Shown here one piece after another: positions 3,125 through 22,171 of a stretch of 22,171 nucleotides of DNA (position 1 is its first letter; each line of letters starts with the position of its first letter). Made by a program: the position numbers and the translations under genes. The notes under the pieces are model-generated. The model was not told the DNA's origin. It searched no databases and saw only the letters and a program-made list of their open reading frames with translations. Source of the stretch: a virus. Location of the stretch: positions 1-22,171 of the IMG/VR virus record IMGVR_UViG_3300029893_000448. The stretch is one strand, 5' to 3'.

Positions 3125-3459
3125 GAAAGTTTTCAGTAGGAGAAGCAATCCACATCTGTCATCTATTGAAGACCCCGGTATTTATGCATGTAAACGAGAA
3201 CGGTCAGCTGGTTAACGCCATCTACCGCTCCTGCAAACGTGAGGACCTGCTGGAGCTGAAGAAAGAGCTAGACCTAGGAGAAATTCGAAAGAGACATTAC
3301 AGTACAACGAAAGAGATTGACTGGGAGATAGGCAATTTATGGTTCTTTGGAGTGGAGGAATGCCAGATTGTCAGATATGAAGAGCGAGTGGTTCCAGCGC
3401 AACCGGAAAAAATCGAGAAGGTGCCGATCTACATTTGTGGGGAAGAAGATAGTCGGTAA
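3121..3459 (+). CDS. Hypothetical protein (112 aa)
   Basis: I do not recognise the family. The translation is soluble, mixed alpha/beta and charged, with scattered cysteines (CHLL near 13, SCKRED near 38, ICGEED at the end) that do not form a clear metal site. It is coupled to the methyltransferase-like gene by a 4-base ATGA overlap, with GGAGGTGAT about 5 bases before its ATG. The two products are probably made in similar amounts and may act together. The coding call is strong; the function is unknown. Confidence 0.65.
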   Translation: MRKFSVGEAIHICHLLKTPVFMHVNENGQLVNAIYRSCKREDLLELKKELDLGEIRKRHYSTTKEIDWEIGNLWFFGVEECQIVRYEERVVPAQPEKIEKVPIYICGEEDSR

Positions 3460-3491
3460 TAGTCTTAATCTAAACCGAGGAGGTGGAAAGC

Positions 3492-3974
3492 ATGAAGCGA
3501 GCATTCACATTATGGTTAGATGAGGAACTAATATCTTCAGTAAAGACTCTAGGTCACTCTGTAAGCAGCATAGTAAACAGCCTTCTGCAAGAGAACCTTC
3601 CTCTGATAGATTTAGCTTTATTCGATTTGCAGCCTCTCCTCTTTAGGCAGCAGCTGCTGGAGCAGAGAAATCGGATTTGTATTCAGCAGATAGAGCTGTT
3701 GCAGGGAGAAGTTAGAAAGAATGAGGAAGAACTGGCTGTACTGAATGAGAAAATAGGGAAAATCCTGGTGCAGAAAAAGAAAGTAGAAGAGAGCAAGAAA
3801 TTGGCTATGTTGTACCGAGAAATGAACAACATTATTGAATTTCACAACTACAACGTGGAAGCGTCTTGGGAAGCCTGTCAAGCTCTGCTTGAGCGCTTAG
3901 CTGAAGCCGGCAAGGGATTGTCGAAAGAAGCGTTCATCGAGCATTGCGGGAAGATAAAGATTTTGAGGGCCTAA
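3492..3974 (+). CDS. Ribbon-helix-helix-like protein with long coiled coil
   Basis: The N-terminus (residues 1-37, KRAFTLWLDEELISSVK then SVSSIVNSLLQENL) has the strand-helix-helix pattern of Arc/CopG DNA-binding proteins. Residues about 50-110 are rich in Glu, Leu, Lys and Gln with heptad-like spacing, and should form a coiled coil for dimerisation. The C-terminal 50 residues are helical. I set the start at ATG 3492 because GGAGGTGG ends 5 bases before it; the in-frame GTG at 3483 lies inside that ribosome site. It ends convergently with the minus-strand winged-helix gene, with a 4-base overlap. A transcription or partition regulator is plausible, and it is one candidate ligand of the dyads found in this region. 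Confidence 0.62.
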   Translation: MKRAFTLWLDEELISSVKTLGHSVSSIVNSLLQENLPLIDLALFDLQPLLFRQQLLEQRNRICIQQIELLQGEVRKNEEELAVLNEKIGKILVQKKKVEESKKLAMLYREMNNIIEFHNYNVEASWEACQALLERLAEAGKGLSKEAFIEHCGKIKILRA

Positions 3975-4258
3975 ACGTCTTCCTTTCTATGGATATCTAC
4001 ACCATAGTAAACTCTGCCTGCTTCATCCTTTCTCACGTCAATGTCGTGCCCGTCTCTTTGCCATTTTGCAACTGCCCTATACCATTCCGCGTAAGACAGG
4101 TTCTTATCAAACTCTGCCTTCACGAAGTCTCGGATTTCCCTAAAGGTGACTATTCTACCAACACATTTATTCAACACAACAAACCATTTCACTTTTGGAA
4201 GTCTCTTGGTCTTACCTCTTTCCACCAACTTAAGTTTCATAAACTCCTTTATCTCCAA
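3971..4258 (-). CDS. Small winged-helix-like protein, paralogue family member 1
   Basis: This 95-aa protein is one of three clearly similar small proteins here (others at 4901 and 5729). Shared features are an N-terminal M-x-I-x-x-F-like motif, a K-x-K/A-W motif near residue 24, a Gly about 10 residues later, a REI/HDV/REV helix, then a Ser, a helix, and a basic G-[HY]-x-[VI]-x-V hairpin with a Tyr near the end. The pattern of helices followed by a beta hairpin suggests a winged helix. The TTG start at 4258 follows GGTGA by 6 bases. It is the only minus-strand gene of the left region and shares a divergent promoter region (4259-4385) with the next gene, a typical arrangement for an autoregulator. 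DNA binding is inferred. Confidence 0.68.
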   Translation of the reverse strand: MEIKEFMKLKLVERGKTKRLPKVKWFVVLNKCVGRIVTFREIRDFVKAEFDKNLSYAEWYRAVAKWQRDGHDIDVRKDEAGRVYYGVDIHRKEDV

Positions 4259-4900: not shown

Positions 4901-5173
4901 ATGGCTATGTCAATTGAAGAGTTTAGACGATTGCCTGAGAAGACGAAGGGATTGAAATCTATCGTACCCTGGAACGACGTGGTCAGCGAATTAACTGGAA
5001 CTGTTTTCTCTTATCACGATGTAAAAGCAATCGTGCTGAAATATAAGAAGAAGTTTACCCACAGTGAACTACATCGGGTTCTAAAACAATTAGAAAAGAA
5101 AGGTCATGTTATTGAAGTCAGACAGGATGAAAAGACTAGGAAGACCTGGTACGGCTTAGACTTGGAGCAATAA
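4901..5173 (+). CDS. Small winged-helix-like protein, paralogue family member 2
   Basis: This 90-aa protein aligns along its length with the proteins at 4258 (minus) and 5729. It shares MSIEEF at the N-terminus, VPWNDVVSELTG for the W-x-x-x-hydrophobic-x-x-x-G block, a central YHDVKAIV helix, SELHRVLKQL as a possible recognition helix, and a hairpin KGHVIEVRQDEKTRKTWYGLDL. AAAGAGG lies about 8 bases before the ATG at 4901; the family alignment would also allow ATG 4907. It is preceded by a TATA box and a dyad, so it probably has its own promoter. A DNA-binding regulator is the best guess; homologues with a measured function are not known to me. Confidence 0.68.
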   Translation: MAMSIEEFRRLPEKTKGLKSIVPWNDVVSELTGTVFSYHDVKAIVLKYKKKFTHSELHRVLKQLEKKGHVIEVRQDEKTRKTWYGLDLEQ

Positions 5174-5728: not shown

Positions 5729-5995
5729 TTGTCCATAGATGTTCTGAGGTTTCTGCCCAGAAAGAGGCGAGCAAAGGTTGCTTGGAATAGGGTTCTAGAA
5801 GAGATAATTGGCAAGCCTGTCCGAATCAGAGAAGTTATGATGATTGCTGAAAGGCATAGAATAAATCTGGATAAACAACTGTACTACAGCGAGGTTTCTT
5901 CTTGGCTCCTTAGGCTTCGTTCAAAGGGCTACTATGTTAGAGTGGAGAAAGACCGTGAAACCAATGCAGTGTATTACACTGTTTCGATGGTCTAA
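5729..5995 (+). CDS. Small winged-helix-like protein, paralogue family member 3
   Basis: This 88-aa protein is the third member of the local family. MSIDVLRFLP at the start, KVAWNRVLEEIIG, the REVMMIAERH helix, SEVSSWLLRL and the hairpin KGYYVRVEKDRETNAVYYTV align with the 4901 and 4258 (minus) proteins. The start TTG at 5729 follows GAGG by about 6 bases. The sequences are well diverged from each other, so the copies are old or were gained separately. Probably a DNA-binding regulator; the target is unknown. Confidence 0.66.
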   Translation: MSIDVLRFLPRKRRAKVAWNRVLEEIIGKPVRIREVMMIAERHRINLDKQLYYSEVSSWLLRLRSKGYYVRVEKDRETNAVYYTVSMV

Positions 5996-10920: not shown

Positions 10921-11277
10921 GTGGAGTATATAAAGAAAATATACAGAACCAGCTTTGAAGCTTCCCATTATGTGCCCTATCATCCCAAGTGTAGTCGATT
11001 TCAGACCCGCCAAGACGGGCTGACGACATTACACGACCATGAGTACAAGGTTACAGTTCTGCTGAAACAAGATTTCTTTATAGATTTCTATGATATTAAG
11101 GAGCAGGTAGACGGTATCGTAGCACAATATGACCATGAGAACCTAGGACCTGTGTCTAGCGAAATGCTGGCTTTGAAAATCGGTAGGGCAATTAAACAAG
11201 CTCTCAAACTCGGTGATGATTCGGTGACTGTTTGCTTATATGAGACAGAGAAGTTCGGGGTTGAAGTTACAGTGTGA
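10921..11277 (+). CDS. queD-like: QueD / 6-pyruvoyl-tetrahydropterin synthase-like protein, catalytic set complete
   Basis: The family converts dihydroneopterin triphosphate to carboxy-tetrahydropterin (QueD, on the path to preQ0 and 7-deazaguanines) or to pyruvoyl-tetrahydropterin. Zinc ligands are H16 (FEASH) and H38/H40 (LHDHEY). The catalytic Cys is C24, the Asp-His pair D71-H72 (QYDHENL) is present, and E108 (LYETE) matches the substrate-binding Glu. The usual HGH is HDH, and about ten extra residues separate C24 from it. The start is odd: GTG 10921 lies inside the AGGAGGTG ribosome site, while an in-frame ATA at 10930 has ideal spacing. The gene probably serves 7-deazaguanine modification of viral DNA or tRNA, with other steps from the host. 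Confidence 0.8.
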   Translation: MEYIKKIYRTSFEASHYVPYHPKCSRFQTRQDGLTTLHDHEYKVTVLLKQDFFIDFYDIKEQVDGIVAQYDHENLGPVSSEMLALKIGRAIKQALKLGDDSVTVCLYETEKFGVEVTV

Positions 11278-11369
11278 GAGGCTACATCAGCGGGTTCTCC
11301 GATTTCACGTTAGAAAAGGCGTACAGATAGAACCGCTCTGCACTTATAGGTTTCTTGAGAGGTGAAGGT
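11278..11369 (+). promoter_or_regulatory. Intergenic stem between the two QueD-like genes
   Basis: AGCGGGTTCT (11289-11298) and AGAACCGCT (11329-11337) are inverted with one bulged G, leaving a 30-base loop. The stem ends about 20 bases before the ribosome site of the second gene. It does not match the preQ1 riboswitches I know. It may affect expression of the second gene or processing of the mRNA. Confidence 0.3.
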
Positions 11370-11756
11370 TTGAAAACAAAGTTACACGTTAGCTTTGTAT
11401 TTGAAGGTGAGCATTGCTATCCGCAAGCGATACGGGAAGACATTCGCAAACTTCACACCCACTATTTTCTAGCTACGGTGTACTTTCCTGTAAGAGAACT
11501 TTCAAGAGAAGTGGAACTTCTCGACTTTCGAGATGAACTAAAGGCGAAAGTCACAGAAAAGTTTGGAGGCAAGTTTGGCAGCATGTCCTGTGAAGAAATA
11601 GCTGTTGAAATTGCACAGTTGGTTTGGAGCCTGATTAGGAGGAGGGTAACAGTGACGGTAAGCGAGGAAATGTGTGGAGCAACGGTTAGCCTGTCTAATG
11701 GAGAGTTAGAGCGACTTGTTAAAGGTAGACAGCAGAGAAAGCAACAGAGTGATTGA
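11370..11756 (+). CDS. Second QueD-like protein, apparently lacking catalytic residues
   Basis: The 128-aa protein keeps the QueD fold pattern: VFEGEH with H15, LHTHYF with H29 and H31 (the three zinc ligands), a LLDFRDELK segment like the family's DF-x-D/E-L, an SCEEIAVEIAQLV helix like the usual PTSEN helix, and a final strand RVTVTVSEE. The catalytic Cys before the H-x-H is missing (C16 sits next to H15 instead) and the Asp-His pair is replaced by GGKFG. It may be a non-catalytic partner of the first protein in a mixed oligomer. TTG 11370 follows GAGAGGTGA by 5 bases; the TTG at 11355 precedes that site. It overlaps the next gene by 41 bases. Confidence 0.68.
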   Translation: MKTKLHVSFVFEGEHCYPQAIREDIRKLHTHYFLATVYFPVRELSREVELLDFRDELKAKVTEKFGGKFGSMSCEEIAVEIAQLVWSLIRRRVTVTVSEEMCGATVSLSNGELERLVKGRQQRKQQSD

Positions 11757-18482: not shown

Positions 18483-18856
18483 TATAACACCATGTATTCT
18501 TTACCTTTCCATAGTACCATTTTGTAGTAGAAGGCTCTAACTACTCCACTTCTCTCTTCATAGGAGAAAGATTCTAGTAGCCAGTCTCCATCATACCTCG
18601 TGTCAGGTGCTGATACAGCCACCACTGTATGAACTCTGTTTCGAAAGGGAATGATATATGTTGTCTCCAAGTGAGCCTTGCCTTGCCCAGCCTCTGCAAA
18701 GATTCCCTCTATCTCTAGCACTCTTGCTTTATCCCCTATGCTTAGAATGATAGGTAAATCACCTGGAAATGTTGCTGCTTTAACCTCTGCTGGATATCTA
18801 TCAATTACTCTGGAAGGAGCAAAAGGCAGAGTAATCCCAGCTATTATCCAGCTCAT
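18482..18856 (-). CDS. Small tail-tip protein (124 aa)
   Basis: The protein is beta-rich and sits between tape measure and hub, the place of distal-tail or baseplate connectors in siphoviruses. It has features of short tail proteins that interact with the hub: an early proline-rich strand (LPFAPSRVIDRYP), KARVLEIEGIF in the middle, an IIPFRNRV segment and WLLESFSYEERSG near the end. I cannot name the family. It starts at TAATG, overlapping the tape-measure stop, with GGAGG about 9 bases upstream, and its stop overlaps the hub start in the same way, so all three are translationally coupled. Confidence 0.62.
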   Translation of the reverse strand: MSWIIAGITLPFAPSRVIDRYPAEVKAATFPGDLPIILSIGDKARVLEIEGIFAEAGQGKAHLETTYIIPFRNRVHTVVAVSAPDTRYDGDWLLESFSYEERSGVVRAFYYKMVLWKGKEYMVL

Positions 18857-20781
18857 TAAGTGCGCCTCCTCAACGCCTCAGCTATGCCCTTGTTTGCAGC
18901 TTCTCTTACCAAGTCAAGGTCAGCTACACCTGTTACTGTGCCAATTGAGATTGTTGAGTAAATGGTTATCTCTTGTCGAGCTTCAGGACCGCCGCCTGGG
19001 CTTCCGGCACCTATCTCGACTCCTCTCAAACCTTTTAAGCCTTCTCCTAACCTTGTCACATCTTCTGTTAACCCTCTTGTTTGCTCTTCCACAGTGTCTA
19101 GAGTCTCTCCAAATCTTTTAGCCATCGGAATCGCATGTCTAAAACAGAGTGCTGCTAAAGCACCGCCTAGCCAACTAACTGCCCCTGCTACTCCACCTAC
19201 AATTTTTTCTACCACTCCCCCCACTCTCTCGAATGCTTCCGCAGCTGCAACTAAAACCATGATAGAGCTTGCTAGCGCTGTGATTCCTGTTGCAAGAGCA
19301 AATAAGCCTGCTGACGCGCCGATTAACCCAAACATAGCTGGAATCAGCGTTAAGCCAGCTGCAGCGATAGCTGTTAAACCTGCTGCTGCTACAAAGAGGC
19401 TTGGAATAGCTGGTGAGAGAGTTAGGAGACTCGCCAACAGAAGGATTAATCCTTCACTAGCCATTTTCACTCCTATTCCAGCCATTAGGAAAGCTGCTCC
19501 AACCGCTAGGGCTGCTGCTGCTAATGCGAGAATTATTGGTATCACTGGCATAGCAAGTGCCCCTGCTGTTCCCATTGCTGTTCCAACAGCAACTAAGGCT
19601 GGGCTAACAACAGCACCCACTCCTCCGAGAGCAGCTAGGGCAATAGTGGCAAGCTTGAATGTAACTAGGCCAACTGTGAATGCTGCTGCTACCGCTGCTA
19701 TTAAGGCTGGTATCGGACCTATTGTTCCTTCTAACCATTTAAACACGGCTACAGCCGCTGTTATCGCAGCTACCACTGCGATGAGAATGGGTAACAAAGG
19801 TGCTAAAGCTGTTGTTGCCAACCAGCTTAGCAAAGAGCCTGCTGCCATCAAAGCTGGGCTTAAGAAGTATAAAGCTGTACCGATTGCTATTAAGATTGGT
19901 GACAGACCTGCTGCTAATCCGATGAAATAGGCTAAATGAGGGAGAATAGGCTCTATCACGCCTAACAGCCAGACTATCCCACCTACAACATCTAAAATGC
20001 CCCTTACGAAGGATTCTAAGGCAGGGATACCAACTCGCTCAATTAGTCCCGAGATTTCAGCCAATACTTTGTTAATGCTTTCGAAAAGCGGCAACAGAAC
20101 AGGCTCGGCCCTCTCAGCCATACGCAGCATTGTCTCTCCTAAACGAACAAGTCCGCCAGTGAGCTTGGAAACTGCTACTGCTGCTAGGTAAACCAGAGCA
20201 GTCTGTAGCAGAGCTAAGATTGATTGAAGAGTCATTCCAGCCTCAGGCAGTTTCCCCATTACTTTCAGCATAAACTCCTGTGCTTCAGCTGATAAGTAGC
20301 CTCTGCTTGCTAAGAAGCCAAGAGCGAAGGCTGTGTCTACTAGCGTCCTTTCCCAGTCTTTGAGAAGACTGATTCCTCTCCGAATTGGGTCGGTAAACCA
20401 CCTAAGCACAATTCTACCTATCATCACCAGTCTGTAAGCTAGCCATCCCACTCTCATTCCAGCTCTGAAGAGGGCTCTGCCGAATAGCTCTAGCCTCTTG
20501 CGACCTTCCTCAGCTTTTCTACTCTGCATATCCAATGATGCGGTTAGCATGCGGAAGCCCGGGTCTAACTGTCCCGCTTTCACTCTAGTTTGCCAATAGG
20601 CTTCTTGCATTCCTCGAAAAACCGCATCTTGTTCTCTTCCTTTTATTCCAAGCTTGCCCAGCATCATAGTGGTTCTTGCGAAAGACCCGTATAAATCGTC
20701 AAGCTTTCTTCTAACGTGAACCGGAACCTCTGGGTTTTCCTCTAACCATGTAAGTAATAGCTGATGTCTTGTCTCAGCCAA
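18856..20781 (-). CDS. Tape measure protein (641 aa)
   Basis: Residues 1-150 are charged and helical, with Arg-rich segments. About 155-530 is a long hydrophobic helical part, very rich in Ala, Leu, Gly, Ile and Val with several membrane-like stretches. The C-terminus is polar (EQTRGLTEDVTRLGEGLKGL and a Gly-rich linker). This composition and its place directly after the tail chaperone genes identify the tape measure, which sets tail length and may help DNA entry. At about 1 nm per 6-7 residues, typical of the family, the tail would be near 95 nm. The TTG start at 20781 follows GAGGGA and overlaps the frameshifted chaperone frame by 8 bases. The long plus-strand frame across it (18962-19930) is a shadow of its Ala codons. 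Confidence 0.85.
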   Translation of the reverse strand: MAETRHQLLLTWLEENPEVPVHVRRKLDDLYGSFARTTMMLGKLGIKGREQDAVFRGMQEAYWQTRVKAGQLDPGFRMLTASLDMQSRKAEEGRKRLELFGRALFRAGMRVGWLAYRLVMIGRIVLRWFTDPIRRGISLLKDWERTLVDTAFALGFLASRGYLSAEAQEFMLKVMGKLPEAGMTLQSILALLQTALVYLAAVAVSKLTGGLVRLGETMLRMAERAEPVLLPLFESINKVLAEISGLIERVGIPALESFVRGILDVVGGIVWLLGVIEPILPHLAYFIGLAAGLSPILIAIGTALYFLSPALMAAGSLLSWLATTALAPLLPILIAVVAAITAAVAVFKWLEGTIGPIPALIAAVAAAFTVGLVTFKLATIALAALGGVGAVVSPALVAVGTAMGTAGALAMPVIPIILALAAAALAVGAAFLMAGIGVKMASEGLILLLASLLTLSPAIPSLFVAAAGLTAIAAAGLTLIPAMFGLIGASAGLFALATGITALASSIMVLVAAAEAFERVGGVVEKIVGGVAGAVSWLGGALAALCFRHAIPMAKRFGETLDTVEEQTRGLTEDVTRLGEGLKGLRGVEIGAGSPGGGPEARQEITIYSTISIGTVTGVADLDLVREAANKGIAEALRRRT

Positions 20782-20986
20782 CAGTCTTCCCTCTAAATCT
20801 TCTACGCTTTGCTCTAATCTTATCTGTTAGCGCTTCAGGATACAGCTCTTTGTTCACTTCAGATAGAATCGCTCCATCTAATAGTAATCTTTCTAAAGAG
20901 TCTTCTCCGCATTCTAGGATATCTGTCGGGCGTATTCCCAGCTGGATTCCTATGTGTCCCGCTGCTCTGGCTAGAGGCGTTTTAGC
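20774..20986 (-). CDS. Frameshift-expressed C-terminal extension of the tail assembly chaperone (T part)
   Basis: Seventy codons lie open in the +1 frame after the chaperone gene. They read AKTPLARAAGHIGIQLGIRP and go on to LLDGAILSEV and a basic tail RAKRRRFRGKTVG. There is no ATG, GTG or TTG before codon 44, and the stretch is dense coding sequence between the chaperone and the tape measure. In siphoviruses this is exactly where the T part of G/GT chaperones lies, made only by ribosomal frameshifting. The fusion would have 135 + 70 = 205 residues. Its TGA overlaps the tape measure start. An independent start at CTG is conceivable but has no ribosome site. Confidence 0.75.
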   Translation of the reverse strand, partial: AKTPLARAAGHIGIQLGIRPTDILECGEDSLERLLLDGAILSEVNKELYPEALTDKIRAKRRRFRGKTVG

Positions 20987-20999
20987 GAAAGGACCTCCT
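20982..20999 (-). promoter_or_regulatory. Predicted +1 programmed frameshift site
   Basis: On the minus strand the zero frame reads AGG-AGG-TCC-TTT-CGC-TAA. AGGAGG is a perfect internal Shine-Dalgarno three bases before TTT. A tRNA-Phe on TTT can slip forward one base onto TTC with full pairing, and the zero-frame stop follows one codon later. The bacterial prfB site has the same order (Shine-Dalgarno, three bases, slip codon, stop). After the slip, GCT-AAA begins the 70-codon extension. Confidence 0.7.
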
Positions 21000-21392
21000 C
21001 TGCTCCTCTTTTTCCTTAGAAAAGCCTGCCAGAGACATGATAGCGTCTAGGAGAGCATGCTGGTCTTCAAAATCGATCTCGTCAACGTGAAGCATGGTTT
21101 CACAGTTTACCTCTGAGGTGAGTTTGGGCTCTACCACACAATCAATCAGAATATCGGTGAGTGCTTCAGCAACCCGCTTTGGACCTTGCTCTGACTTGAT
21201 TAAGTCCATGTACCTCTGTTTCATCAAATTAATGTCTTCTGAAGGTTCAATGTTTAAAACTGCCATGAATTTCATCAGTCTTTCAGCATTCGGCTTCCTG
21301 ACAGTGAACACTGGATGGGTTCCGTCTTCTAGGGTGCTGGGAAGCTCAACCTTGAAGAGTTTGCTTTTTCTGTATCGTTCCACTAGGGACAT
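20982..21392 (-). CDS. Tail assembly chaperone (G part, 136 aa)
   Basis: This helical acidic protein lies between the tail tube and the tape measure, the position of the G protein that keeps the tape measure soluble during tail assembly. It begins with a beta-like segment FKVELPSTLEDGTHPVFTVRKPN, as in many siphovirus chaperones, and then has helices (ERLMKFMAVLNI, EALTDILIDCVV, HALLDAIMSLAGF). Its last residues are polar (KEKEEQRRSFR), where the frame overlaps the +1 extension. ATG 21392 follows AGGTGAT by 4 bases and comes 8 bases after the tail tube gene. Most ribosomes should stop at 20982; a fraction should make the longer fusion. Confidence 0.75.
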   Translation of the reverse strand: MSLVERYRKSKLFKVELPSTLEDGTHPVFTVRKPNAERLMKFMAVLNIEPSEDINLMKQRYMDLIKSEQGPKRVAEALTDILIDCVVEPKLTSEVNCETMLHVDEIDFEDQHALLDAIMSLAGFSKEKEEQRRSFR

Positions 21393-21400
21393 TCTATCAC

Positions 21401-22171
21401 CTAATATGCTGTATCCTTATTGAATAGTTCCACTCTGCTGTCAGCGTGCCTCATAGCCTTGAAAGAAAATGTTTGTGTGAGCCTTTCCCTCCTGCTCACT
21501 GTTGAAGGCTGCTCGGTAAGTATGACAGTGGGCAGTGTTACATTTACTTCATAGTTAGGTTTATCAGTGACTCCGGTAGGCTCTCCCACTAGCTTAAGAA
21601 TCATACCGACCGTTGCTGCTTCTTCTTGGGGTTCAGTAGCAGCTGCTGCTCCGTAAAACCTTTGCCTCATTGCCCAGCTCTCAAACTTTAGCTCAACCTC
21701 TCCTGTGATAGCAGCTCCTTCTAAGAGGATAAGAGGCAATTTTCTACTTCCCACCTCGTGTATATCATCGGGTATTTCATTCTCTATCCTGGCTGAAAAA
21801 GCCTCAACTCTTGCCAATACCGTTCCAGAGGGAAGCTCTACTGCACCATCATGGAATACGAATGGACGTAGAGTTGATAGTGTTCCCATTGTAGGAGCTG
21901 TCGCTAAGTCTTCCCAAGCATATAGCAAGTCGAGGTCACAGGTGACTAATTCTCTTGCTGGTGCTTCTAAAGTCAGTCCTCTAATCAGTGACCCTATTAA
22001 GAATCGACTATTAAGACCTGTGATTCCTCTGTTATCTGAGAGAGTGAAGCTTTTGATAGCATCTGCTATTTTAAAAGTGTGTTTGTACATTACAGTGACT
22101 CCAATCTGAGTAGACGTAACGCTTCCGAATGCCCATTTCAAAAAGTGACCGATTGTGTCCGGTCTAGCAAA
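21401..22171 (-). CDS. Major tail tube protein, 5' end cut by the window
   Basis: The frame stays open to the window edge (FARPDTIGHFLKWAFGS at the visible start), so the true start lies outside; the TTG at 22141 is only an internal codon. The visible 257 residues are beta-rich with few charged clusters. The P-D-T-I-G-x-F-L-K-x-x-F-G stretch resembles the conserved N-terminal region of siphovirus tail tube proteins, and the gene precedes the tail chaperone. Residues in the second half (LPLILLEGAAITGEVELKFESW) fit the tube's beta barrel. It would polymerise around the tape measure to form the tail tube. Confidence 0.72.
   Translation of the reverse strand, partial: FARPDTIGHFLKWAFGSVTSTQIGVTVMYKHTFKIADAIKSFTLSDNRGITGLNSRFLIGSLIRGLTLEAPARELVTCDLDLLYAWEDLATAPTMGTLSTLRPFVFHDGAVELPSGTVLARVEAFSARIENEIPDDIHEVGSRKLPLILLEGAAITGEVELKFESWAMRQRFYGAAAATEPQEEAATVGMILKLVGEPTGVTDKPNYEVNVTLPTVILTEQPSTVSRRERLTQTFSFKAMRHADSRVELFNKDTAY

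Follow-up and report, generated by a model that had tools for sequence, protein, structure and literature searches.

In the autoregulatory bacterial gene prfB, a UGA stop codon is passed by a slip from CUU onto UUU, and the known slip direction of phage Mu is -2. For +1 frameshifting a Shine-Dalgarno spacing of 3 nt is given by Atkins et al. (PMC5009743), and prfB follows it, with a Shine-Dalgarno sequence 3 nt ahead of the slipping P-site codon and with competing Shine-Dalgarno sequences avoided at its sites; the tail chaperone genes G/GT of phage lambda, on the other hand, are read by a -1 slip (PMC5009743). Among archaeal programmed frameshifts, the -1 of fucA alone is counted as firmly shown (PMC8037382). 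In the tail chaperone of the halovirus HSTV-2, +1 frameshifting is described as very likely, or apparently, used (PMC5009743 and the archaeal recoding review PMC8211752), and in the HF1 group a TTT-CGC has been pointed out and likened to eukaryotic TTT-CGn sites in a study of new HF1-like haloviruses (PMC7230728). In the literature, +1 frameshifting in archaeal viruses is a prediction. For influenza PA-X a +1 shift at UCC_UUU_CGU has been demonstrated by mass spectrometry (PMC3498833). The statement of an earlier note on the present DNA, that a +1 slip driven by an internal Shine-Dalgarno sequence would be unusual for archaea and for a tail chaperone, is not supported as regards archaea, since a +1 shift had already been proposed for HSTV-2 (PMC5009743, PMC8211752) and for the HF1 group (PMC7230728).

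The window analysed here is the whole of a virus record of 22,171 bases, whose minus strand carries, in this order, tail tube, G and tape measure genes (Table 1). Two overlapping ORFs lie between the tail tube and tape measure genes, an arrangement consistent with the G/G-T pairs of Caudoviricetes. In profile searches the tail assembly chaperone family phrog_344 was matched by G alone (E 4e-4) and by the G-T fusion (E 1.2e-4), and a match of G to PF24117 (DUF7391) was seen below the cut-off only. The portion of the T frame that would be used comprises 71 codons from TTC followed by TGA, and the TTG start of the tape measure gene at 20781 overlaps this stop by 8 bases. The identity of the gene as a tail chaperone, its position between tail tube and tape measure and the 8-base overlap, all claimed beforehand, are therefore borne out by profile matches and coordinates. 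Gene position and expected role are those of lambda G/GT, from which the locus differs in the direction of the proposed slip.

Table 1. Features of the tail chaperone locus in the window
Feature	Position	Strand	Basis or remark
Tail tube protein	21401..22171	-	Phage_tube_2, E 2e-12; 5' end lost at contig end
G part, tail assembly chaperone, 136 aa, ATG to TAA	20982..21392	-	ORF; phrog_344, E 4e-4; tail tube and tape measure neighbours
Open +1 frame with T part	20774..21046	-	ORF; used portion 20989-20774
Internal Shine-Dalgarno sequence AGGAGG (AGGAGGT with the next base)	20994..20999	-	3 nt before the shift codon
Predicted shift codon TTT (P site)	20988..20990	-	Would re-pair as TTC (20989-20987) after +1 slip; T homology to HHTV-1 starts there
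Zero-frame A-site codon CGC	20985..20987	-	Infrequent Arg codon in the window virus
Zero-frame stop TAA	20982..20984	-	One codon past TTT CGC
Tape measure protein	18856..20781	-	phrog_1535, E 1.4e-5; TTG start

The last codons of G are GAG CAG AGG AGG TCC TTT CGC TAA. The -1 frame is closed at the G-T overlap, and in the +1 frame the first ATG, GTG or TTG is a GTG at 20857, 44 codons past TTC; the end of G and the startless frame up to that codon had been given correctly in the earlier note in the details that were checked. Reading through TTT_C yields one unbroken protein of 205 aa. From the sequence, T is very probably expressed by programmed +1 frameshifting in which tRNA-Phe moves from UUU to UUC, so that a G-T fusion of 205 aa is produced in addition to the 136-aa G. 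The in-frame TTT_CGC followed by an open +1 frame places the site with UUU_CGN-type sequences, whereas prfB is marked by CUU_U and an A-site stop codon, in place of which the window has TTT_C and an A-site CGC, so that the slip would take place at a sense codon, one codon before TAA. Because TCC_TTT_CGC is identical in HSTV-2 and nearly identical to the influenza UCC_UUU_CGU, the site is not the CUU-stop slip site of the prfB mechanism to which it had been assigned, and falls in the class of influenza PA-X. Influenza A PA-X and the other UUU_CGN viruses share with the window a near-identical site and the +1 direction (PMC3498833, PMC5052127), although PA-X is read by eukaryotic ribosomes and involves no Shine-Dalgarno mechanism. 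In the window virus CGC is used 4.2 times per 1000 codons, compared with 29 for AGA and 16 for AGG. The stretch AGGAGGNNNTTTC occurs once in the window (mean of shuffles, 0.08 per whole window). Downstream of the shift site, the RNA fold was no better than that of shuffled sequences (z 0.61). TTT_C is by itself weak evidence, since 0.09 occurrences are expected in the 21-codon overlap of the window, and the case consequently rests on relatives.

The best support for the predicted +1 fusion is comparative. The closest relative found is HHTV-1 (Madisaviridae), whose gp28 matches the window tail tube with an E of 1e-6 in tblastn and whose genes 33 and 34 are likewise arranged as G followed by a T in the +1 frame, the G end being CAG TTT CCA GAA TAA. 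The fused window protein and the fused product of genes 33/34 align co-linearly across the junction, Phe on Phe, with an E of 0.001 in blastp (a single pair compared with no composition correction). From this Phe the T parts align gapless with 9 of 25 residues identical, a score reached by 2 of 20000 shuffles, and the register with offset 0 was the best, other offsets not coming near; a T part matching the extension, as had been suggested for search, is thus found in HHTV-1. HHTV-1 differs from the window in its A-site codon CCA, in the lack of a Shine-Dalgarno sequence at the site and in the annotation of g34 as a separate gene, with an ATG six codons past Phe. Since the alignment with the window runs upstream of this annotated ATG, as far as Phe, g34 probably forms the downstream half of a +1 fusion. 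The same alignment bears on a very unlikely alternative, in which T would be translated separately by ribosomes that bind at AGGAGG and re-initiate at a start codon of a non-canonical type. AGGAGG does lie just ahead of the G stop, a common position for coupling, and an ATG is present near the junction in HHTV-1 g34, HFTV1 gp37 and HRTV-4 gene 65. However, the homology to HHTV-1 reaches past its ATG to Phe, HRTV-29 has no ATG at the junction (a GTG lies five codons up), and the T frame of the window is without ATG, GTG or TTG for 44 codons and without ATA, ATC, ATT or CTG over the 11 codons next to the shift site.

The predicted +1 fusion was also compared with the tail chaperone genes of other archaeal tailed viruses. 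The +1 lineages surveyed were Hafunaviridae, Haloferuviridae, HHTV-1, two Methanobacteriales viruses and the window, and TTT_C was found at the junction in each of them. In HSTV-2 the chaperone is annotated as a join and TCC TTT CGC is the same as in the window; HF2 (GAG AAG), HRTV-8, HJTV-2 and HRTV-27 have AAG TTT CGC, and HRTV-25 has GAA TTT CGT. The HSTV-2/HF1 group (Hafunaviridae) thus resembles the window in its G-T pair before the tape measure gene, its +1 T and its TTT_CGC, and differs in being haloarchaeal myoviruses with no Shine-Dalgarno sequence before the site and with T parts not detectably like that of the window. Haloferuviridae have GGG or GGA TTT CGC (HFTV1, HRTV-4, HRTV-29 and further IMG/VR contigs), and the human-gut methanogen viruses vir249 and vir080, with T in +1, have TTT CAA and TTT CCA respectively. 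A literature search of incomplete coverage gave no publication in which TTT_C is described for Haloferuviridae, HHTV-1 or methanogen viruses. The T parts of the window and of Haloferuviridae both begin with FAK[ST], and homology between them was considered and rejected: past this motif the profile gives no support, the Haloferuviridae profile scoring the window protein not above shuffled copies, and the likeness is therefore claimed only as a shared site.

The expectation of TTT_C per overlap is 0.014-0.13, mostly 0.02-0.09, and the product for Haloferuviridae, HHTV-1, vir249 and vir080, leaving out HSTV-2/HF1 as the source of the hypothesis, is about 1e-6, a guide and not a test, as lineages are not random draws. 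TTT_C near the G end is absent in psiM2, phiCh1, HATV-2 and HHTV-2, where the longer downstream frame is -1. HGTV-1 (3398-3893) has a TTT_CAC near the end of its G gene, yet T is annotated there in the -1 frame, and BJ1 could be assigned to neither group. In HRTV-29 (MZ334526, 6392-7071) GenBank places a '-1 frameshift' on the chaperone; the part homologous to the T of HFTV1 and HRTV-4 (FAKSSDEFLQYALVQDGTDKTFREIH...) follows GGG TTT CGC in the +1 frame, and by this reading the -1 annotation looks wrong.

The same frame could be reached by another slip, either +1 at TTT_T, the second of the two in-frame TTT codons of the overlap (21023), or -2 at an AAAAA run (GAA AAA GAG), both geometrically possible in the overlap. 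A -2 slip is also annotated as 'putative -2' in the records of HJTV-2, HRTV-25 and HRTV-27, where +1 at TTT_CGN gives the same frame and a -2 slip at TTT_CGN would not re-pair. Such another place or direction is nevertheless unlikely for the window: the homology between the T parts of the window and HHTV-1 sets in at the TTT_C Phe, TTT_C is common to all surveyed +1 lineages, AGGAGG has the +1 spacing to TTT_C, -2 at TTT_CGC would not re-pair, and TTT_T at 21023 has no Shine-Dalgarno sequence at 3-nt spacing. Another explanation is that a single chaperone gene is split, either by an error of one base in sequencing or assembly or by a frameshift mutation of recent date. It is favored by the locus being known from one record, and is extremely improbable considering that a long homopolymer is absent at the site and that the same +1 relation together with TTT_C is present in complete genomes of isolated viruses.

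What sets the window sequence apart from the other +1 sites is its putative stimulator, since AGGAGG-TCC-TTT has the prfB geometry, with the Shine-Dalgarno sequence 3 nt ahead of the shift codon. The prfB-like slip of the earlier note accordingly stands for AGGAGG and its spacing (PMC5009743) and falls for the shift site itself, AGGAGG being the only prfB-like element. The duplex with the anti-Shine-Dalgarno at the window site is within the top 0.2% of in-frame positions, whereas before the shift codon of 12 other sites no strong pairing was seen (energies of at least -6.2 kcal/mol). GGAGG stands ahead of the start codon in several window genes, and it is therefore plausible that the host ribosome recognises the motif. 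Counting against this role, another stretch resembling a Shine-Dalgarno sequence, GAGGAG (21008-21003), is found shortly upstream of AGGAGG, a departure from the avoidance of competitors in prfB. AGGAGG upstream of the shift site is absent from the other viruses surveyed. Thus, with regard to conservation in related genomes, TTT_C and the +1 relation are kept in the surveyed lineages, while AGGAGG is absent from them and no close relative was found. The novelty of the window is, at the level of sequence, the combination of the archaeal-virus and influenza shift site with the bacterial prfB stimulator. Whether UUU_C is a general +1 site of the tail chaperones of archaeal tailed viruses, in halophiles and methanogens, to which this lineage added an internal Shine-Dalgarno sequence, is evenly balanced in our judgment.

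Close relatives of the window were searched in viral_contigs with G, the tail tube, the AAA protein, the tape measure, the G-T alignment and the tail-tip N-terminus, and in genome_contigs with G and the ERCC4 nuclease, and none was found in either. The exact 15-mer AGGAGGTCCTTTCGC had six matches in viral_contigs, none of the six in a tail chaperone context. An AlphaFold2 model of the fusion (single sequence, no alignment) was too poor for use, with a pLDDT of 41. An archaeal host appears likely: all matches of the ERCC4 nuclease are to viruses of haloarchaea and Methanobacteriales, and the arginine codons preferred in the window are AGA/AGG. The window tail tube also matches Gordonia phages, and the Sak4-like protein matches bacterial phages. 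Elsewhere in the window, an N6_N4 DNA methyltransferase (859-2496, +; Pfam 30-524) includes helix-turn-helix matches at 351-381, two adjoining PTPS/QueD-like genes lie at 10921-11277 and 11355-11756 (+), the second being a weak match, and proteins of about 90 aa at 3971-4258 (-), 4901-5173 (+) and 5729-5995 (+) resemble, by eye, diverged copies of one small family.

What the analysis establishes is the anatomy of the sequence, the profile match to a chaperone and the conservation seen on comparison. According to the proposed mechanism, two tail assembly chaperones would be made from one start. Most ribosomes would stop at TAA and release the 136-aa G, while in a fraction of them tRNA-Phe on the P-site UUU, with the infrequent CGC in the A site, would slip +1 and re-pair perfectly with UUC, the T frame then being read to give 205 aa. 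The rate of this slip is probably raised when AGGAGGU, placed 3 nt away as in prfB, pairs with the 3' end of the 16S rRNA. If the roles correspond to those in lambda, the tape measure protein would be coated by G, and tail tube subunits would be brought in by the T domain of G-T.

If true, this would be the first case known to us in which a +1 frameshift on an archaeal ribosome is stimulated by a sequence placed as in prfB. A short site common to several lineages (UUU_C, often UUU_CGC) makes archaeal +1 frameshifting at a site used by influenza directly testable, and the Shine-Dalgarno sequence of the window, at the prfB spacing, makes the action of the anti-Shine-Dalgarno during archaeal elongation testable as well. 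In addition, UUU_C would provide an annotation rule for G-T fusions that are now labelled as -1, as -2 or as separate genes in public records.
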